A program made the translations under genes and the position numbers. From positions 1 to 22,007 of IMG/VR virus record IMGVR_UViG_3300007735_000859: 22,007 nt of DNA. The stretch is one strand, 5' to 3'. Within the stretch, counting starts at the first letter, position 1. Every line of letters starts with the position of its first letter. This DNA is from a virus. Below are positions 14,376-21,767 of this stretch, in pieces. The notes below the pieces were generated by a model that saw nothing but the letters and a program-made list of their open reading frames with translations, ran no database searches and was not told the origin of the DNA.

Positions 14376-14571
14376 AGTATCCACTCCTTGCGTTTGATAC
14401 GGGTTGAACGATGTTGGTGCGGATCACCCAGATGTTGGTGCCGTTGGAAGGGTCGATGGCCTTTTCAAGCCACACCTTTACAACGTAACCGCGCTTGCGC
14501 CACCAGTTGCGGATGTCTGCCATCAGCTTGTAGTTGGCTGCGCGATCCGCCAGATAGTCATGCCTTGCCAT
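14365..14571 (-). CDS. Small basic hypothetical protein
   Basis: This 68-residue protein ('LADRAANYKLMADIRNWWRK', 'GYVVKVWLEKA', 'IWVIRTNIVQ') starts inside the polymerase 3' end (14-bp overlap). GGAGG lies 4 nt before ATG 14571. Its Trp-rich basic helix and short beta hairpin would suit a small nucleic-acid- or protein-binding fold. A similar short protein occurs in other phages, but I know of no function. Confidence 0.7.
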   Translation of the reverse strand: MARHDYLADRAANYKLMADIRNWWRKRGYVVKVWLEKAIDPSNGTNIWVIRTNIVQPVSNARSGYCVD

Positions 14572-15997
14572 TGGGCCTCCATTTCTTCAGGCCGTCAGGG
14601 TTCTTGTCGCTGGCCTTGCCCCAGTTATACCCGACTTCGACATCAAATGGAATCATTATTTCACGGCTGATGCCTTTGATGTCGGTCACTGGGAAAGGAA
14701 AGCGAAGGCATTCAAGAACTTCGGGTAGCAGTTCGTCGGCCTTGTCAATGCGGACCTGGCCGAGAACAGCATCGTGTAGGTTCAGAAGTATTTGAACGTC
14801 GGCGCCGGGCTTACCTTCGAAGCGTTCCCATATCTGGTAGATGCCGATGTTCATTAGGACACCGACGCAGTGCTGGGGTACGAAGGCAATGGCTTCGCGC
14901 AGGGTAGCATCGTCCCAGCGCCGGTTCCAGAAGTTGCGCCGGATACCGAAGGGCGTGATCAGGTAGCCCTTGGTCTGTAGCTGGTTGGCTACCCATACGT
15001 GCCAGTCGCTGATGCCGGGGAACCGCTTGAAGTACTGGGCCTGGAAGGCTTCAGCTACGGCGGTTTCGACCTTCATCTGCTGTGCCAGGGTGAACGGCTT
15101 TCCATAATAGTTACTGCCGTGGGCGCCCCTCTTTGTAATGTCACGGTAAGAATAGCCACGGTAGTATTCGCGTTCAGCAAGCTCGCGGTCTGGCGCGAAA
15201 CCAAAGACCATGGAAGCGACCATTGTGTGTGAGTCGCCACCCTCCACTGCCGCGATGTAGTTATCATCGCCGGATAGATACGCAACAATGCGCGCTTCTG
15301 CTCCCTGTTGATCAGAATAGAAAAGTAGATAGCCTGGATCAGCAACGAAGCAGGTGCGCGCTTCCTTCGGTATGTTTTGAAGGTTACTTCCGATACGGAA
15401 CGGATGTTCACTTGACGATAGTCGGAACGTCTCAGTGCCTGCGATATTGAACGCTGCATGGAAACGGTTGCTGGGCGACAGCTTCTTACTAAGAAATTCG
15501 ATTTGCTTTTCAAGGTCGCGGATGCGGAGGATGTGGTTGGCGAAGAAGGCACCGCGCGGGTATTCACGAGCGATGCGTTCGAGGATTTCGCGGTCGGTTC
15601 CAACTTTGGTTTCTCCTTTCTTGGATTTGGTTTGCTCGGGGATGGCGAGCATTTCGTAGAAGAGGACCATGAGCTGGGGCGTGGAGTTGTGGTTGACTGT
15701 CGTGCCCCATAGCTGCTCGCAGACGTAGTCGAAGTTGGCTTGGACGTGGTCAGCGCGGGCGCGTAGTCCGGCTACCAAGGTGTCGCGCCGGGCCGTGTCG
15801 ATCTGGACGCCGCGCCGCATCATGGTCATGATAGGACCGAGCATCAGTTCGCTGTAGCGGTGGGTGGTCGCGGCCCAGTCAGGAAGAAGGCCCTCGTCGT
15901 AGATTTCTTTGAGGGCCATCGTCTGCATTGTGTCAAGGGAATTGTATACGATCTCTTGATTTTCAGGAGTCGGGGTCAGGTCCGTCAGTATCTTCAT
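14558..15997 (-). CDS. Family A DNA polymerase, polymerase half (split from its exonuclease)
   Basis: The 479-residue polypeptide carries the Pol I palm and fingers: 'LQNIP' (206-210), motif A 'YSDQQGAEAR' (catalytic Asp229), motif B on the O-helix 'RDITKRGAHGSNYYG' (Arg285, Lys289, Tyr297), and motif C 'NLHDAVLG' (catalytic Asp409). Two deviations stand out: the residue four after the O-helix Lys, equivalent to Phe762 of E. coli Pol I, is His293, and the usual HDE is HDA. The first 30 residues contain 'VYNSLDTMQT', the Exo III motif YxxxD (Tyr18, Asp22), so the protein starts in the middle of the exonuclease domain. ATG 15997 has its own GGAGA 5 nt upstream. It should replicate phage DNA, presumably with the product of 16594-17538. 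Confidence 0.93.
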   Translation of the reverse strand: MKILTDLTPTPENQEIVYNSLDTMQTMALKEIYDEGLLPDWAATTHRYSELMLGPIMTMMRRGVQIDTARRDTLVAGLRARADHVQANFDYVCEQLWGTTVNHNSTPQLMVLFYEMLAIPEQTKSKKGETKVGTDREILERIAREYPRGAFFANHILRIRDLEKQIEFLSKKLSPSNRFHAAFNIAGTETFRLSSSEHPFRIGSNLQNIPKEARTCFVADPGYLLFYSDQQGAEARIVAYLSGDDNYIAAVEGGDSHTMVASMVFGFAPDRELAEREYYRGYSYRDITKRGAHGSNYYGKPFTLAQQMKVETAVAEAFQAQYFKRFPGISDWHVWVANQLQTKGYLITPFGIRRNFWNRRWDDATLREAIAFVPQHCVGVLMNIGIYQIWERFEGKPGADVQILLNLHDAVLGQVRIDKADELLPEVLECLRFPFPVTDIKGISREIMIPFDVEVGYNWGKASDKNPDGLKKWRPNGKA

Positions 15998-16289
15998 TGG
16001 TGTCTCCGTTGAGGAAGTTATTTCGCATACGGGTAAGCAGATGCAAAGTCAAGGGAGGACCGTCATAGGATTTGGCAAAGCGCCGGACACGGGTCGGGTC
16101 AAGGTCAGCAGCCAGACAAACTTCGTCGAAGTTCTGGGCGGTGGTGCCAAACTCAGCGGTGAGCCATGCGTGAGCCTGCCGCTTGTTGACTAGGGCTACT
16201 GGTGTCTTGGGTTCGGAGGTAGCGTCTATGAGCGCTTGGATAATTACGCTCGCCCATAGACGCCTGATGCCTGAATCTTCTTCGCTCAA
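15963..16289 (-). CDS. Small alphaproteobacterial-type protein, possible DNA-binding regulator
   Basis: The 108-residue protein has the pattern 'RRLWASVIIQALIDATSEP' ... 'RQAHAWLTAEFGTTAQNFDE' ... 'VCLAADLDPTRVRRFAKS'. I recognise it as a small family in alphaproteobacteria and their phages. The second half is compatible with a helix-turn-helix, so DNA binding is plausible but unproven. The start is TTG 16289 (ATT 16292 is possible); no strong ribosome site is seen, so it may depend on the gene ending 12 nt upstream. It overlaps the polymerase start by 35 bp and is one of the two genes separating the polymerase halves. Confidence 0.72.
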   Translation of the reverse strand: MSEEDSGIRRLWASVIIQALIDATSEPKTPVALVNKRQAHAWLTAEFGTTAQNFDEVCLAADLDPTRVRRFAKSYDGPPLTLHLLTRMRNNFLNGDTNEDTDGPDPDS

Positions 16290-16300
16290 AATGTCGGTAC

Positions 16301-16573
16301 TTATTTAGATTTACCGACCTTTTGTGCTTTCTTAGATTCCTCTTTGAGTTCCGCGTTGGAAGTCTTGTCGGCCACAGTGACCGTAAAGAACTCGGGAACC
16401 TTGAGGCCAGTGGCTTCTTCGAACATCTTGCCAAGCTTGTTGTAGTCACCAAGCTCAAGCGTCCTGTTCATCCACTCGTTGAAGACTTTTTCGAGAGGAT
16501 AGGTCTTAACAAACTCAGCGGTTTTGCCGAAGTCGATGGTCGCGTAGACCGATAGTCCAATAGTTTTTTCCAT
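16301..16573 (-). CDS. Hypothetical 90-residue protein between the polymerase halves
   Basis: ATG 16573 is preceded by GGAGA 6 nt upstream. The sequence begins with a beta strand ('GLSVYATIDFG'), has a helical middle ('LEKVFNEWMNRTLELGDYNK', 'LGKMFEEATGL') and a highly charged Lys/Glu tail ('ELKEESKKAQKVGKSK'). No homing endonuclease, intein or maturase motif is visible, so it does not explain the split polymerase as an intron or intein. No family is recognised. Co-location suggests a replication accessory role, as inference only. Confidence 0.7.
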   Translation of the reverse strand: MEKTIGLSVYATIDFGKTAEFVKTYPLEKVFNEWMNRTLELGDYNKLGKMFEEATGLKVPEFFTVTVADKTSNAELKEESKKAQKVGKSK

Positions 16574-16593
16574 GGTAGTTCTCCGTCAGCAGG

Positions 16594-17538
16594 TTAGTCG
16601 ATTGCTCCTGCCTTGTTAAAGTCTTTTTTGGCCTTGGTTCGAAGGTGCTTCCATGCGCGGGTCGGTATGTGAAGGGAGGCTAGGAAGCCCAGCGACTTTT
16701 CCCATTCCGGTTGCCATGCGTGGTGGCGAAGCATCGTATCGAAGATGTGGCCTTTAGGTCTTATGCCATAAGCATCAAGGTATGTCAAGTCATAGGTGGC
16801 GTTATGAAATCCCCATGACAAGTCGGGACGTTGGGCCAGATACCAAAGCCACATCCAGATGTCACGCTCGTCGGCTTCGGACCAGATGTGTTGGTAGGCA
16901 CGGTCTTCTAGCTGGACGTACAGGCAGCGGTCTGACGACGTGGCTACGGAGAACTCGGTGATGCGGCAAGCCTTGTTGGTTTCTACGTCGAAGACAATTT
17001 CATCGCCGATGTAGCGGGTCGAAAAGTCGTAGAGGTCGGCGACCGTTTCGGGCAGGTGAATGGTGCGGGGCCGGTCAGTGTAGCGGGTCTGGACTTTACG
17101 CATAGCGGATACTACGACGGGCCGTTCGTTCCAAGCCATGCGCGCGTAGAGGGTGGGCGCGTAGGTCGGAACCACCTGCAAGCCCTTGACGAAGGGGCTG
17201 TCGATGTGGGTGCCCCGGAAGGTGTCCAGCTTGGTTTCGCCGGTCAAGCAGTGCATGGCATGGGGACCCATGGTCAGGGCCATGTCATAGCCTTGCAGGT
17301 CAGCGCATAGCTTAACGAAATCGTCTTGGGCTAGGCGCGTGAGCGGGGCGCCCGGCTTGCCACCGACAAACAGGGTAGGCCACTTGGCGGTGTAGGCCCG
17401 GTGTGCGGTATGGATACTGGTCGGACGCAGGCCCGCCGCTTGCAGCAGTTCCTGCGTTACCTTCCATTCCCACTCGGAGAGTGGGCCACCGTTGGCAGCG
17501 TCGACCGAGGGCCAATCAATTACTAGGGCGATCTTCAA
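16594..17538 (-). CDS. UDG-like fold plus DEDD 3'-5' exonuclease, N-terminal half of split PolA
   Basis: In the 314-residue protein, residues about 1-150 resemble the uracil-DNA-glycosylase-like domain found at the N-terminus of some phage polymerases ('YDMALTMGPHAMHCLTGETK', 'GLQVVPTYAPTLYAR', 'RPVVVSAMRKV'). The usual 'TYHP' is 'TYAP', so glycosylase activity is doubtful. Residues about 178-300 are a DnaQ-like exonuclease with Exo I 'IVFDVETN' (D184, E186) and Exo II 'GFHNATYDLTYL' (N246, D250). The protein ends before Exo III, which lies at the start of the polymerase gene. The start is TTG 17538, supported by GGAG 7 nt upstream and by overlap with the previous gene (23 bp). Confidence 0.85.
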   Translation of the reverse strand: MKIALVIDWPSVDAANGGPLSEWEWKVTQELLQAAGLRPTSIHTAHRAYTAKWPTLFVGGKPGAPLTRLAQDDFVKLCADLQGYDMALTMGPHAMHCLTGETKLDTFRGTHIDSPFVKGLQVVPTYAPTLYARMAWNERPVVVSAMRKVQTRYTDRPRTIHLPETVADLYDFSTRYIGDEIVFDVETNKACRITEFSVATSSDRCLYVQLEDRAYQHIWSEADERDIWMWLWYLAQRPDLSWGFHNATYDLTYLDAYGIRPKGHIFDTMLRHHAWQPEWEKSLGFLASLHIPTRAWKHLRTKAKKDFNKAGAID

Positions 17539-19276: not shown

Positions 19277-19364
19277 ATGTCAAGGCTCCATAAAGAGTTA
19301 GGGGAGCAGACTTGCGCCCACTCCCCCTTCCCTGTACTCACCAACTAAAGGAGAAGCGGTTCGG

Positions 19365-19814
19365 TCAGGCCGCCTTCTTGTAGCTATCGACCGAGTAGTA
19401 ACGCGACACCGTCAGGCGAGGCGTGTTCAGTGGGGTGCCATCACGGTTCTCAGTTTCGTGGGCAACCGATACAACGACGTCGCTGCCGGGAAGAATATCG
19501 ACAGCGTCACGAATGCTGTTACCGACAGTGTCCTTGCTGATGCGAGCAAGACGATCTTGCACCACCGGCAGAGACTTCTCCGAAATCCAAAGCGTATCAC
19601 GGAGACGGCACTTGGAAAGATCGACGCCCGTCATGTCGTGCGGGTGCAGAGGGTCGATCATGGTGAAGGTAATCTCCAAACCCTGAGTACCGGAGTTCGC
19701 CTTGACAATCTTCACAGACTGCACAGTGGCAAGATACTCGCCCGCCGGGGCCTGCCGGAAAGCCGGACGATCAGCAGCGGTGTTGGAAATCACGGTGTCG
19801 AAAAGGTCAGCCAT
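19365..19814 (-). CDS. DUF669-type protein, probable ssDNA-binding accessory
   Basis: The 149-residue protein begins 'MADLFDTVISNTAADRPAFR', continues 'APAGEYLATVQSVKIVKANS', 'GTQGLEITFTM' and 'SKCRLRDTLWISEKSL', and ends in beta-rich sequence. This matches the DUF669 pattern of phage proteins encoded next to Sak4-like ATPases and thought to have an OB-like, single-strand-binding role. ATG 19814 is chosen over TTG 19853 because GGAG lies 10 nt before it and family members begin near MADLFD. A promoter about 45 bp upstream (19859-19887), with an inverted repeat over its -35 box, suggests regulated, separate transcription. The 88 nt after its stop hold no clear gene. Confidence 0.78.
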   Translation of the reverse strand: MADLFDTVISNTAADRPAFRQAPAGEYLATVQSVKIVKANSGTQGLEITFTMIDPLHPHDMTGVDLSKCRLRDTLWISEKSLPVVQDRLARISKDTVGNSIRDAVDILPGSDVVVSVAHETENRDGTPLNTPRLTVSRYYSVDSYKKAA

Positions 19815-19858
19815 TGGCTGTGTTCTCCATAAGGGTTGTGTCACATAGGACAAGGCGG

Positions 19859-19887
19859 GATATACATCCGGGCACCCGCCCTGTCAA
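19859..19887 (-). promoter_or_regulatory. Sigma70-like promoter upstream of the DUF669 gene
   Basis: On the minus strand a perfect TTGACA (19887-19882) is followed by 17 bp and TATATC (19864-19859), a weaker -10. Predicted +1 is about 19852, giving a 38-nt leader before ATG 19814. It lies in one of the few noncoding gaps of the window (19815-19901). Confidence 0.55.
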
Positions 19888-19899
19888 TAGATGCCCGGA
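19867..19899. promoter_or_regulatory. Inverted repeat enclosing the -35 box, candidate operator
   Basis: An 8-bp perfect inverted repeat, TCCGGGCA at 19867-19874 and TGCCCGGA at 19892-19899, is separated by 17 bp that include the -35 TTGACA and most of the spacer. The location and symmetry suit a repressor or activator site. There is no U-run after it in the minus direction, so terminator function for the preceding gene is less likely; AT-rich sequence follows it on the plus strand. Confidence 0.45.
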
Positions 19900-19901
19900 A
19901 A

Positions 19902-20087
19902 TTATTTTAGCGTGGCCGGGTTGTGAAGGTTGGCAAGGAGTTGCTTCATTTCACGATTCTTCCGCGCAAGCAAGGAATTGTGGTAGTCACGATCTTCCAA
20001 ACAGAGGCGGCGAGGTTTACCTCTGACTCGGTTTTCTTCTGCTTTGGACGGACTAAGATTTTCTACTTTGATTCTCTTCGCGCACAT
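19902..20087 (-). CDS. Small basic hypothetical protein, 61 residues
   Basis: The ORF 'MCAKRIKVENLSPSKAEENR' continues 'VRGKPRRLCLEDRDYHNSLL' and 'ARKNREMKQLLANLHNPATL'. It is strongly charged, with a C-terminal helix, and may bind nucleic acid. AGGAG lies 7 nt before ATG 20087, inside the end of the ATPase gene, and the ATPase stop is two bases upstream. No family is recognised. It is the last gene before the noncoding promoter region. Confidence 0.65.
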   Translation of the reverse strand: MCAKRIKVENLSPSKAEENRVRGKPRRLCLEDRDYHNSLLARKNREMKQLLANLHNPATLK

Positions 20088-20089
20088 GA

Positions 20090-20893
20090 TCAGGCTCCTA
20101 TGGTCAGGCGGTCGAGCATCGAGGCTAGGTCGTATGGCTCGGCTGCCTTGATGAGGGTGGGTGCGGAGGTGCGAAGCGAAGCCTTGTCTGTGGCCGCTGT
20201 CTTAAAGGTGCGGTTGCCTGCGCGGTCCACTTCGAGGTGCCAGATGTCAGAGAAGTAGGTTTGCATCTTCTTAGAGAACTTGACGCCGACGCCGACGGGC
20301 ACGTCACGGGCCTTGCCAATGATCTTGCCTTGGTCGTCGGTGTCGCCAGTCTGCATGATGTGGGTTAGCACAATGACGGACGCGCCCATCTTGTTGCCAG
20401 TCAGGTGGTCGAGGATGGCGCCGTAGTATTTGCCAGCCACGTTGTAGAGGGAACGCCCATCGCGCTTGGCTTCGGGGTCTTCATGGGCGGCAAGCAAAAG
20501 CAGTTCGCCCAGGAAGGTGCCGCTGTCGATGACGACAACATCTTTCGAAGTCCATGACGTGCAGGGTCCAAGGTCTTCGCCCCCGGCTACCTTCCAGTGT
20601 TCCAGCATAGAACAGAAGCGCCGCATCTCAGTGAGGGCTTGCTTGCTGGCGTTGCCGGTTCCAGCAAAGAGGTTGGTGCCGGTGATCTTGGCGGCAGCAT
20701 AGGTGCTGACGTAAACGTCGGCTGCATTGTCGCGCAGATAGGAGCCGATGACTCGAGTGTTCTGGTCGAAGTCATGGATCATGATACGGTAGCCTGCGTT
20801 GGCAAGCTGGGCAAGGGCGCCGGTCTTGCCGGATGCTGCTTCACCGCAAAGCAGGATGCGGGGAGGCATGGCAGCGTCACTAAACTTGGGCAT
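20090..20893 (-). CDS. RecA-fold ATPase, Sak4/AAA_24-like
   Basis: The 267-residue protein has Walker A 'GEAASGKT' (17-24), an acidic motif 'IHDFDQNTRV' (39-48), Walker B 'VVVIDSGT' (119-126) and a sensor strand 'VIVLTHIM' (173-180). It matches phage AAA_24/Sak4-type ATPases, which are linked with single-strand annealing or recombination and usually sit next to a nuclease and an SSB-like gene, as here. ATG 20893 has GGAGA about 9 nt upstream; the in-frame ATG at 20935 would extend back into the nuclease gene. It overlaps that gene by 14 bp. Confidence 0.85.
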   Translation of the reverse strand: MPKFSDAAMPPRILLCGEAASGKTGALAQLANAGYRIMIHDFDQNTRVIGSYLRDNAADVYVSTYAAAKITGTNLFAGTGNASKQALTEMRRFCSMLEHWKVAGGEDLGPCTSWTSKDVVVIDSGTFLGELLLLAAHEDPEAKRDGRSLYNVAGKYYGAILDHLTGNKMGASVIVLTHIMQTGDTDDQGKIIGKARDVPVGVGVKFSKKMQTYFSDIWHLEVDRAGNRTFKTAATDKASLRTSAPTLIKAAEPYDLASMLDRLTIGA

Positions 20894-21767
20894 TGAAAAG
20901 GGTCTCCGATATGGATTGTTTGTTGCGTGGATCATTGGCCCATTGGCTACACCAACGGGACACAGGGCACCAGTTCTGGCAGCGGACTGCTTCGCCGGGC
21001 CTATGTTCTACATACATGGCAACGCTGGTGCTGGCAAGCTTTTCGGCTTCGATAGGGTTGTCGAATAGCTTGACGGCGCGGACGTTGCCCCGCTTCATGA
21101 CTGCCCACTTTTCGGGCTTGGTCCAGCGTTCTTCATCGCTGCATGGTTCGAAGTCGCTGGCTTGGTGGCGGGCGATCTGCCGTTCGATGAAGTCGTCAGC
21201 TTCGGCAGTTTCCCACACACGGACAGAAAAGTTTTTGACTTGGGCCTGCGGGTAGTCAGGGCTGCGGGCAGCCTCGTTGCGGGACCAGTCACGCAGGATA
21301 GCAATGACATTGATGTTGCCTACCTGAAGGCCCTTCTCTTTCTGAAGAAGGCGGCGGTAGATGTTGGTCTGCTGCTCCCATTCAAGCGGGACTTCGCCGC
21401 CTTTGACTTTCCAGGCTGACGTAACCTTGAAGTCATAGAGCTGGGAGCCGGACAGAACTACGTTGTCCACCTGACCTTTTAGTTTCCAGCCCCGGTAGGT
21501 GGAGTTGACGGTGGCTTCGGTCAGCACGTTAGGCAGGGCAAGGCTGGCCCGTTCGATAATGGTGTGAACGGATTGCCCTAGCAAGGACCAGATGCGGTCG
21601 CTTACGTCCTCCTCGATTTCCTCACGGTGCTTCAGCTTAAGGGCACGGAGCTGGGGCGGGGACAGAAGTTCCGTCACCGATATGTCAGCGTCGCCCTTAG
21701 TGTAGCTGTCATTCATGATGGCAGCCACGATAGCTTCGGGTAGGTCTAGCTTGTTGGTCAGTATCAT
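20880..21767 (-). CDS. Cas4/RecB-like PD-(D/E)XK exonuclease with probable Fe-S cluster
   Basis: The 295-residue protein shows the RecB-family nuclease motifs: 'LLGQSVHTIIER' (His68), 'LKGQVDNVVL' (Asp101), 'LYDFKVTSAW' (Asp112, Lys114) and 'EQQTNIYRRLL' (Q..Y). Cys209 and the C-terminal set Cys263-x3-Cys267-x5-Cys273 fit the four-cysteine iron-sulfur cluster of Cas4 and AddB-type enzymes. Such phage nucleases usually process DNA ends for recombination. The partner ATPase and DUF669 gene follow directly. ATG 21767 overlaps the preceding stop as ATGA with only a weak ribosome site, implying coupling. No CRISPR genes or repeats are nearby. Confidence 0.85.
   Translation of the reverse strand: MILTNKLDLPEAIVAAIMNDSYTKGDADISVTELLSPPQLRALKLKHREEIEEDVSDRIWSLLGQSVHTIIERASLALPNVLTEATVNSTYRGWKLKGQVDNVVLSGSQLYDFKVTSAWKVKGGEVPLEWEQQTNIYRRLLQKEKGLQVGNINVIAILRDWSRNEAARSPDYPQAQVKNFSVRVWETAEADDFIERQIARHQASDFEPCSDEERWTKPEKWAVMKRGNVRAVKLFDNPIEAEKLASTSVAMYVEHRPGEAVRCQNWCPVSRWCSQWANDPRNKQSISETLFNAQV

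Follow-up and report, generated by a model that had tools for sequence, protein, structure and literature searches.

A candidate pseudoknot overlapping a putative promoter upstream of a predicted phage single-stranded DNA-binding protein gene

What is the function of an inverted repeat that straddles a promoter in the noncoding gap between two phage genes? The gap in question occupies positions 19815 to 19901 (minus strand) of a 22,007-nucleotide stretch of viral DNA, IMG/VR record IMGVR_UViG_3300007735_000859, which was analysed whole and is referred to here as the window. Its initial annotation as a candidate regulatory switch for the replication genes relied on two sequence observations, both of which we recovered. 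The 8-bp inverted repeat is perfect (8/8), with its arms TCCGGGCA (19892-19899) and TGCCCGGA (19867-19874) 17 nt apart on the minus strand (helix A), and it brackets the −35 box of a TTGACA-17-TATATC promoter (TTGACA, 19887-19882; TATATC, 19864-19859), the 3′ arm lying inside the promoter spacer. By itself, such a repeat is only mildly unusual, as 8-bp inverted repeats with arms at most 30 nt apart occur in 141 of 5000 shuffles of the 87-nt gap and in 4 of 252 87-nt tiles of the window. It rises above chance because it is kept in relatives, a comparison suggested along with the annotation, which revealed preserved pairing in 30 of 37 distinct elements.

A second repeat, absent from the initial annotation, interlocks with the first. 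Its arms, GACAGGGCGGG (19875-19885), which overlaps the −35 box, and CCCGCCTTGTC (19849-19859), which spans the last −10 base to the predicted transcription start, can form an 11-bp helix (helix B) of 10 Watson-Crick pairs and one G·T. The resulting arm order, A-B-A′-B′, is that of an H-type pseudoknot and, since the arms of A and B do not overlap, the two helices could probably form at the same time in one molecule. Taken singly, helices A and B have predicted energies of −13.5 and −20.6 kcal/mol, respectively. A small hairpin (C; GTC-CTATGT-GAC, 19840-19851, minus strand) shares its GTC with helix B, its G being at about +1/+2 of the predicted transcript; this hairpin is weak alone in the window (−1.5 kcal/mol; z +0.85), and its stem consists of three to five Watson-Crick pairs in 33 of 34 rows, L217 being the exception. 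Nested folds of the leaders are not unusually stable (z of −1.2 in the window, −0.8 in L196, −1.5 in L217, and +0.6 in L177); nested folding cannot depict a pseudoknot, and the RNA and DNA z-scores both lack significance. An alternative fold of the window involves UUUCCGGG (arm A, 19892-19909) and CCC..GGAGA over the Shine-Dalgarno sequence (19823-19833). Pairing of UUUCCGGG with the Shine-Dalgarno sequence is a possible off-state, on which no switch model was built.

The gene order around the element is well defined. Upstream and on the same strand are an exonuclease gene, a sak4-like AAA ATPase gene (20090-20935; PHROG 124, E=4.2e-8; Pfam AAA_24 above cut-off), and a 61-aa ORF (19902-20087) that matches no family and fills a variable slot between sak4 and the element. 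Downstream is a 149-aa SSB gene (19365-19814, minus strand) preceded by a GGAG Shine-Dalgarno sequence (19825-19828), a motif that stands before the start codon in the 38 distinct upstream stretches listed, and followed by a terminator-like hairpin (19300-19327, minus strand). Of 35 loci examined, 33 yielded both sak4 and ssb, and the order and strand of the two genes are identical in all 33. A co-directional ORF ends between −31 and +26 of TTGAC in 45 of 45 loci, a test that is weak for short ORFs because the longest antisense frames at these places stay open for 68 to 300 codons, so that the order of sak4 and ssb was given preference over it. Between sak4 and ssb, different relatives harbor different small genes, or none, and this slot resembles a hot spot for insertions that has the element as its border. 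Behind ssb, hairpins of at least 10 pairs (G-T allowed) occur in 35 of 35 distinct tails, 31 of which continue with at least five T in the next nine bases; the hairpin of the window leads into TAACTCTTT, where the T-run is weaker than that of many relatives. A promoter and a terminator of its own thus appear to flank the SSB gene. Of the proposed switch for the replication genes, the regulatory-looking sequence over a conserved promoter stands, but "replication genes" is imprecise, the gene directly downstream being one DUF669 SSB gene with its own terminator-like hairpin. Another promoter-like sequence, TTGACA-16-TATGCT, is found nearby at 19283-19256, partly inside the next ORF.

The 149-aa product is a predicted SSB by family and OB fold. 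It scored 22.3 bits against Pfam PF05037 (DUF669; cut-off 21) and matched the SSB family PHROG 378 weakly (E=0.0041); among the relatives, the L217 protein fell below the Pfam cut-off and that of L228 gave no match. A structure model built from 19 relatives (pLDDT 81.6, pTM 0.71) best matched PrgE of pCF10 in its DNA-bound entry 8s4t (Z 11.0, rmsd 2.7 Å, 112 residues aligned; Foldseek E 1.8e-6 for the best PrgE chain), with SSBs, PriB, and RPA among the lower-scoring matches, and a PDB sequence search returned only an unrelated weak match. The DUF669 protein encoded beside sak4 in HK620 is described as a proven SSB (PMC5928155). As to gp32, the family matches of the product are only DUF669 in Pfam and PHROG 378/3724, and the absence of gp32 from the best 50 fold matches listed carries no information. 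The SSB gene also avoids A at 4-fold degenerate third positions (2 A of 86), more so than the other counted minus-strand ORFs, which is perhaps a sign of high expression.

Relatives were collected by scanning IMG/VR with Sak4, the SSB, and an SSB alignment, which yielded many loci, often pieces of the same contigs. The final set comprises 37 distinct elements, i.e., 34 plus L230, L231, and L241, the window's own included. In bacterial genomes, none of 80 pattern matches encoded a relative, no relative was confirmed among the annotated phage records searched, and a literature search by title and abstract start found no description of the element. With the subfamily 1 core (this subfamily is defined below) as the pattern, a scan retrieved 104 stretches; in this listing, those having the element, as judged by eye, run into an SSB-like start codon, and the remaining ones look like unrelated promoters or chance matches. 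In 12 of 16 contigs (10-63 kb), a covariance model for helix A, which had been built from the very elements that it was then searched against, gave a single strong match each; the L032, L214, and L241 contigs had weak matches, and the L217 contig had none. One contig had a further match at E 0.25, and only the element scored well in the window. Six unrelated viral contigs (L079, L091, L095, L114, L120, and L159) share a promoter-like stretch with a palindrome-like piece in its spacer, TTGACA-ggggtataccc..-TATACT/TATATT.

The putative promoter is conserved across the elements. TTGAC occurs in all 37 distinct elements, followed by A in 18 and G in 19, and TA occupies the −10 place at a fixed spacing in 37 of 37, the elements having been located by the pattern TTGAC[AG]-N17-TA in the 120 to 130 nt upstream of the gene, which no examined sequence failed. 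Elsewhere in the elements, TA makes up 4% of dinucleotides (123/3071). The boxes are in register throughout; the last −10 base is poorly kept (T in 1 of 37), and since the promoter scan demands T at this place, this promoter was not in its list. The register, (C)TTGAC-N17-(G)TATAT, matches that of alphaproteobacterial sigma70 promoters, for which CTTGAC-N17-CTATAT has served as the query in Sinorhizobium meliloti (PMC2573895), but the later −10 positions of the element are degenerate (TATGTG, TATCTA, and others). The promoter may be of an alphaproteobacterial sigma70 type. The predicted start falls on or beside the GTC that opens hairpin C, so that a short transcript would carry a 5′ hairpin and lack both arms of A and the 5′ arm of B.

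Comparison of the elements argues for both helices. The 30 aligned elements (28 distinct rows) all have a recognisable arm A, and 7 bp of helix A and 8 bp of helix B were scored in them. As rows were picked for helix A (six of 34 were dropped, namely L217, L177, L204, L214, L216, and L221; L230 and L231 were included on inspection by eye, whereas L241 never was), the percentages for this helix are inflated, but helix B was not a criterion. Standard pairs fill 416 of the 417 scored cells of the 30 elements, and 7 of the 15 pairs show double changes. The 7-bp core of helix A is paired in all 30 elements, with double changes at five of its seven pairs, and the first eight pairs of helix B are 99.5% paired. 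The covariation score is 0.438, compared with 0.222 in shuffles, none of 500 of which reached the observed value, and slid control structures were only 36 to 50% paired. The count of further pair types, one of five measures, was no higher than in shuffles (15 versus 15.7; 485 of 500 shuffles as high). An earlier set of 28 sequences agrees, with double changes at six pairs, a count reached by 14 of 500 shuffles. Full swaps of pairs are evident in helix A (A6, G-C/A-U; A7, C-G/G-C; A3, U-A/C-G) and in helix B (B4, A-U/G-C; B8, A-U/C-G/U-A). Two subfamilies can be told apart, one with TCCGGGC/GCCCGGA as helix A and an 11-bp helix B (subfamily 1), and the other with TCTGGAG/CTCCAGA and an 8-bp helix B (subfamily 2). 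L217 has the same topology in unrelated letters, with an 8-bp helix A (AAGAGGAG/CTCCTCTT; equaled by 75 of 10000 shuffles) and, by eye, a 6-bp helix B (TGACGC/GCGTCA). As predictions from sequence comparison, helices A and B and the promoter are well supported.

In some relatives, helix A was not detectable. Its pairing is no better than in shuffles in L177, L204, L252 (contig of L214), L242 (contig of L216), and L241. HNH-type genes end directly at the element in these loci (L177:1363-1923, L242:1436-1930, L241:1429-1923, L204:1426-1950, and L252:1373-1924). HNH-type ORFs upstream of the elements were called by eye or by identity in L177, L204, L214, L216, L221, and L241; in the two scanned for Pfam HNH_3, L242 scored above the cut-off and L177 below it. 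Relatives with an HNH-type gene persist without detectable helix A, which counts against the pseudoknot reading proposed below. They still keep the TTGAC and TA boxes, which suggests that the promoter and the fold are each under selection independently.

We propose that the gap is the ssb leader and holds two superimposed signals, a promoter that gives rise to a short leader and a read-through pseudoknot that controls ssb, a reading that we consider to have about an even chance of being correct. The embedded promoter would produce a short mRNA beginning ~37 nt upstream of the start codon, with hairpin C at its 5′ end; this mRNA would extend through ssb and end at the terminator behind it. Transcripts reading through from the exonuclease and sak4 genes of the sak4 operon would instead carry the whole leader as RNA, where A-B-A′-B′ could adopt an H-type pseudoknot between ~85 and 35 nt before the AUG. 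This pseudoknot would most likely be a cis-acting site of the polycistronic message that governs how well ssb is translated or how long the mRNA survives. By analogy with T4 gp32, its most likely ligand would be SSB in excess over ssDNA; both this ligand and repression as the outcome are guesses. A more ambitious version of the proposal, which we regard as tentative and rather doubtful, is that the elements make up a new RNA family of an uncultured phage clade in which the ssb promoter lies within both pseudoknot halves. Here, the start site would decide between a duplex promoter, yielding an unregulated ssb message, and an SSB-responsive operator that shuts the polycistronic copy; an unrelated SSB family would have reinvented the T4 gene 32 circuit, and helix A would have been lost where an HNH-type gene fills the slot. 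Conserved promoter boxes overlapping a conserved fold would then be a compact example of start-site-dependent leader choice.

The alternative that fares best places the same RNA in mRNA stability or processing rather than in translational control: RNase E would cut at the A/U stretch 5′ of helix A, and the knot would shield the 5′ end of ssb. It is rather improbable, yet it draws on an A/T-rich stretch, TAAAATAATT (19900-19909, minus strand), which lies directly before helix A and holds the stop codon of the upstream ORF. Scored with RAUUW, which we take to be the consensus, this stretch matches in 25 of the 37 distinct elements, but the other 12 lack the motif, and good helices occur among these too (L192, L202, L224, L230, and L231). 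The stretch could equally be an UP element. In T4, RNase E is reported to cut gene 32 mRNA species, polycistronic ones included, at −71, shortly before the pseudoknot, and the mRNA is reported to be unusually stable (PMC3014915).

The initial annotation had read the symmetry as typical of a DNA operator. In such a case, a phage or host transcription factor would repress or activate the promoter from a palindrome over the −35 box, which is compatible with the position of the repeat and the conservation of the boxes; palindromes can also covary if the specificity of their regulator changes. However, the gap between arm A and TTGAC is 4, 5, 7, 8, or 9 nt in the 28 of 34 rows having a good arm A. 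This 5-bp variation would rotate DNA half-sites by up to half a helical turn. The letters of the arms differ while their pairing is kept, and the second, interlocked repeat covaries as well. Sliding of arm A and changes in the length of loop C (3 nt in L198 and L203, 5 to 6 nt in the remaining rows) are easy in RNA and hard for a rigid operator. A search for further sites detected only the two arms of TCCGGGCA in the window, which may be a phage fragment (1.01 matches expected; at least two in 27 of 100 shuffles). Nothing singles out the 108-residue protein that had been put forward as the ligand. Pfam gave it no family up to E 0.1, its only PHROG match (E 0.058) is to a family of unknown function, and it is kept at 66 to 89% in 13 of 16 related contigs (the match in the L217 contig has an internal TAA), also in the records of L214 and L241, where helix A was not found. 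Its gene (15963-16289) lies between the halves of an apparently split family A DNA polymerase (14558-17538), the exonuclease half (16594-17538) and the polymerase half (14558-15997) matching different parts of phrog_17 with 90-aa and 108-aa ORFs between them. The variable arm spacing and the letters changing under kept pairing led us to set an operator aside as the main explanation, and we consider it improbable.

We also asked what the wobble pairs say about the nucleic acid that folds. Inside the stems (7 bp for A; for B, 11 bp in subfamily 1 and 8 bp in subfamily 2), sense G·U wobbles occur at nine pair positions and A·C at none, and L225 has one G-G; for a fair coin, nine of nine has a probability of 0.002. 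The raw tallies are less one-sided, with 45 G·T and 17 A·C in helix B (11 positions, 34 rows; A·C is common just beyond the 8-bp stem of subfamily 2) and 10 G·T and nine A·C in helix A, all nine A·C being in rows without a good arm. Furthermore, 4-fold sites of the SSB genes display 1042 C↔T versus 114 A↔G differences (172 non-independent pairs of 44 coding sequences), which makes C↔T 0.85 of the per-site transition differences and raises the probability of nine of nine to 0.22. T also exceeds A at 4-fold sites of the window, 385:221 in 14 minus-strand ORFs, one of them the SSB gene, and 316:147 in three plus-strand ORFs, an excess smaller than the SSB asymmetry. Given the C↔T asymmetry, and because stem ends were set by pairing, wobble direction was downgraded as proof of RNA. 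The wobbles are consistent with RNA and would not separate RNA from ssDNA; action as RNA is, in our inference, the likelier of the two.

A structure in ssDNA, whether in an intermediate of replication or recombination or as a single-stranded promoter of the Frpo kind, is very unlikely. The element adjoins ssb and sak4, Frpo-type hairpins are described upstream of ssb on F (PMC9849209), a similar idea was raised for the STAXI motif and there judged less likely than RNA (PMC2864571), and sense-strand G·T would fit too. Nevertheless, DNA folds of either strand of the window do not rebuild both promoter boxes in a stem, a template-strand structure would favor sense A·C, none of which occurs within the stems, and there was no rolling-circle gene among the ten proteins scanned. 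It is just as hard to believe that the helices act on elongation only, by attenuation or put-like antitermination past the ssb terminator, since no U-run follows A or B and the downstream genes may own promoters, even though the genes beyond the hairpin found in 35 of 35 tails need to be expressed somehow.

Set beside known systems, the proposed ssb leader with its read-through pseudoknot has several partial counterparts. The DUF2815 RNA motif is a candidate RNA upstream of another phage SSB-like family. STAXI (RF01728) also consists of pseudoknots near ssb, but it occurs near other DNA-handling genes too and is built of two or, usually, three tandem pseudoknots with frequent UUCG loops, as described in PMC2864571, whereas the element is single copy (one strong match in the window and likewise in each of 12 contigs out of 16). 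In Rfam searches of the window, L230, L196, L217, and L177, STAXI did not match up to E=5, and no family reached threshold on the element; given the lack of tandem copies and of an Rfam match, we do not take the element to be STAXI. Frpo of the F plasmid likewise combines promoter boxes with self-complementary sequence upstream of ssb. However, the −10 box of the element, or both boxes, lie mainly in loops in DNA folds of both strands, and the ordinary −35/−10 spacing is conserved.

By analogy, the element would work most like the leader of T4 gene 32, in which gp32 is reported to bind a pseudoknot 67 nt upstream of the AUG (PMC3014915, PMC535899). Both this leader, as known from T4, T2, and RB69, and the element show pseudoknot topology in a phage SSB leader, tens of nucleotides upstream of the AUG and where the preceding gene of a polycistronic region ends, and the slot that houses segG in T4 houses an HNH-type endonuclease gene in some relatives here. 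In contrast to gene 32, the SSB is of the DUF669 family, the promoter boxes are inside the knot, the stems are of 7 to 8 and 8 to 11 bp with other letters, and the UUAAA/UAAA coating repeats found in T4 between the knot and the ribosome-binding site are absent, the leader here reading ..GACACAACCCTTATGGAGAACACAGCCAATG. Since these repeats are missing, and any homology to gp32 or any repression would be putative, we do not class the element as a gene 32-type member. A second phage lineage with a covarying pseudoknot before a DUF669 SSB gene would make the repeated evolution of SSB autoregulation through RNA knots testable.
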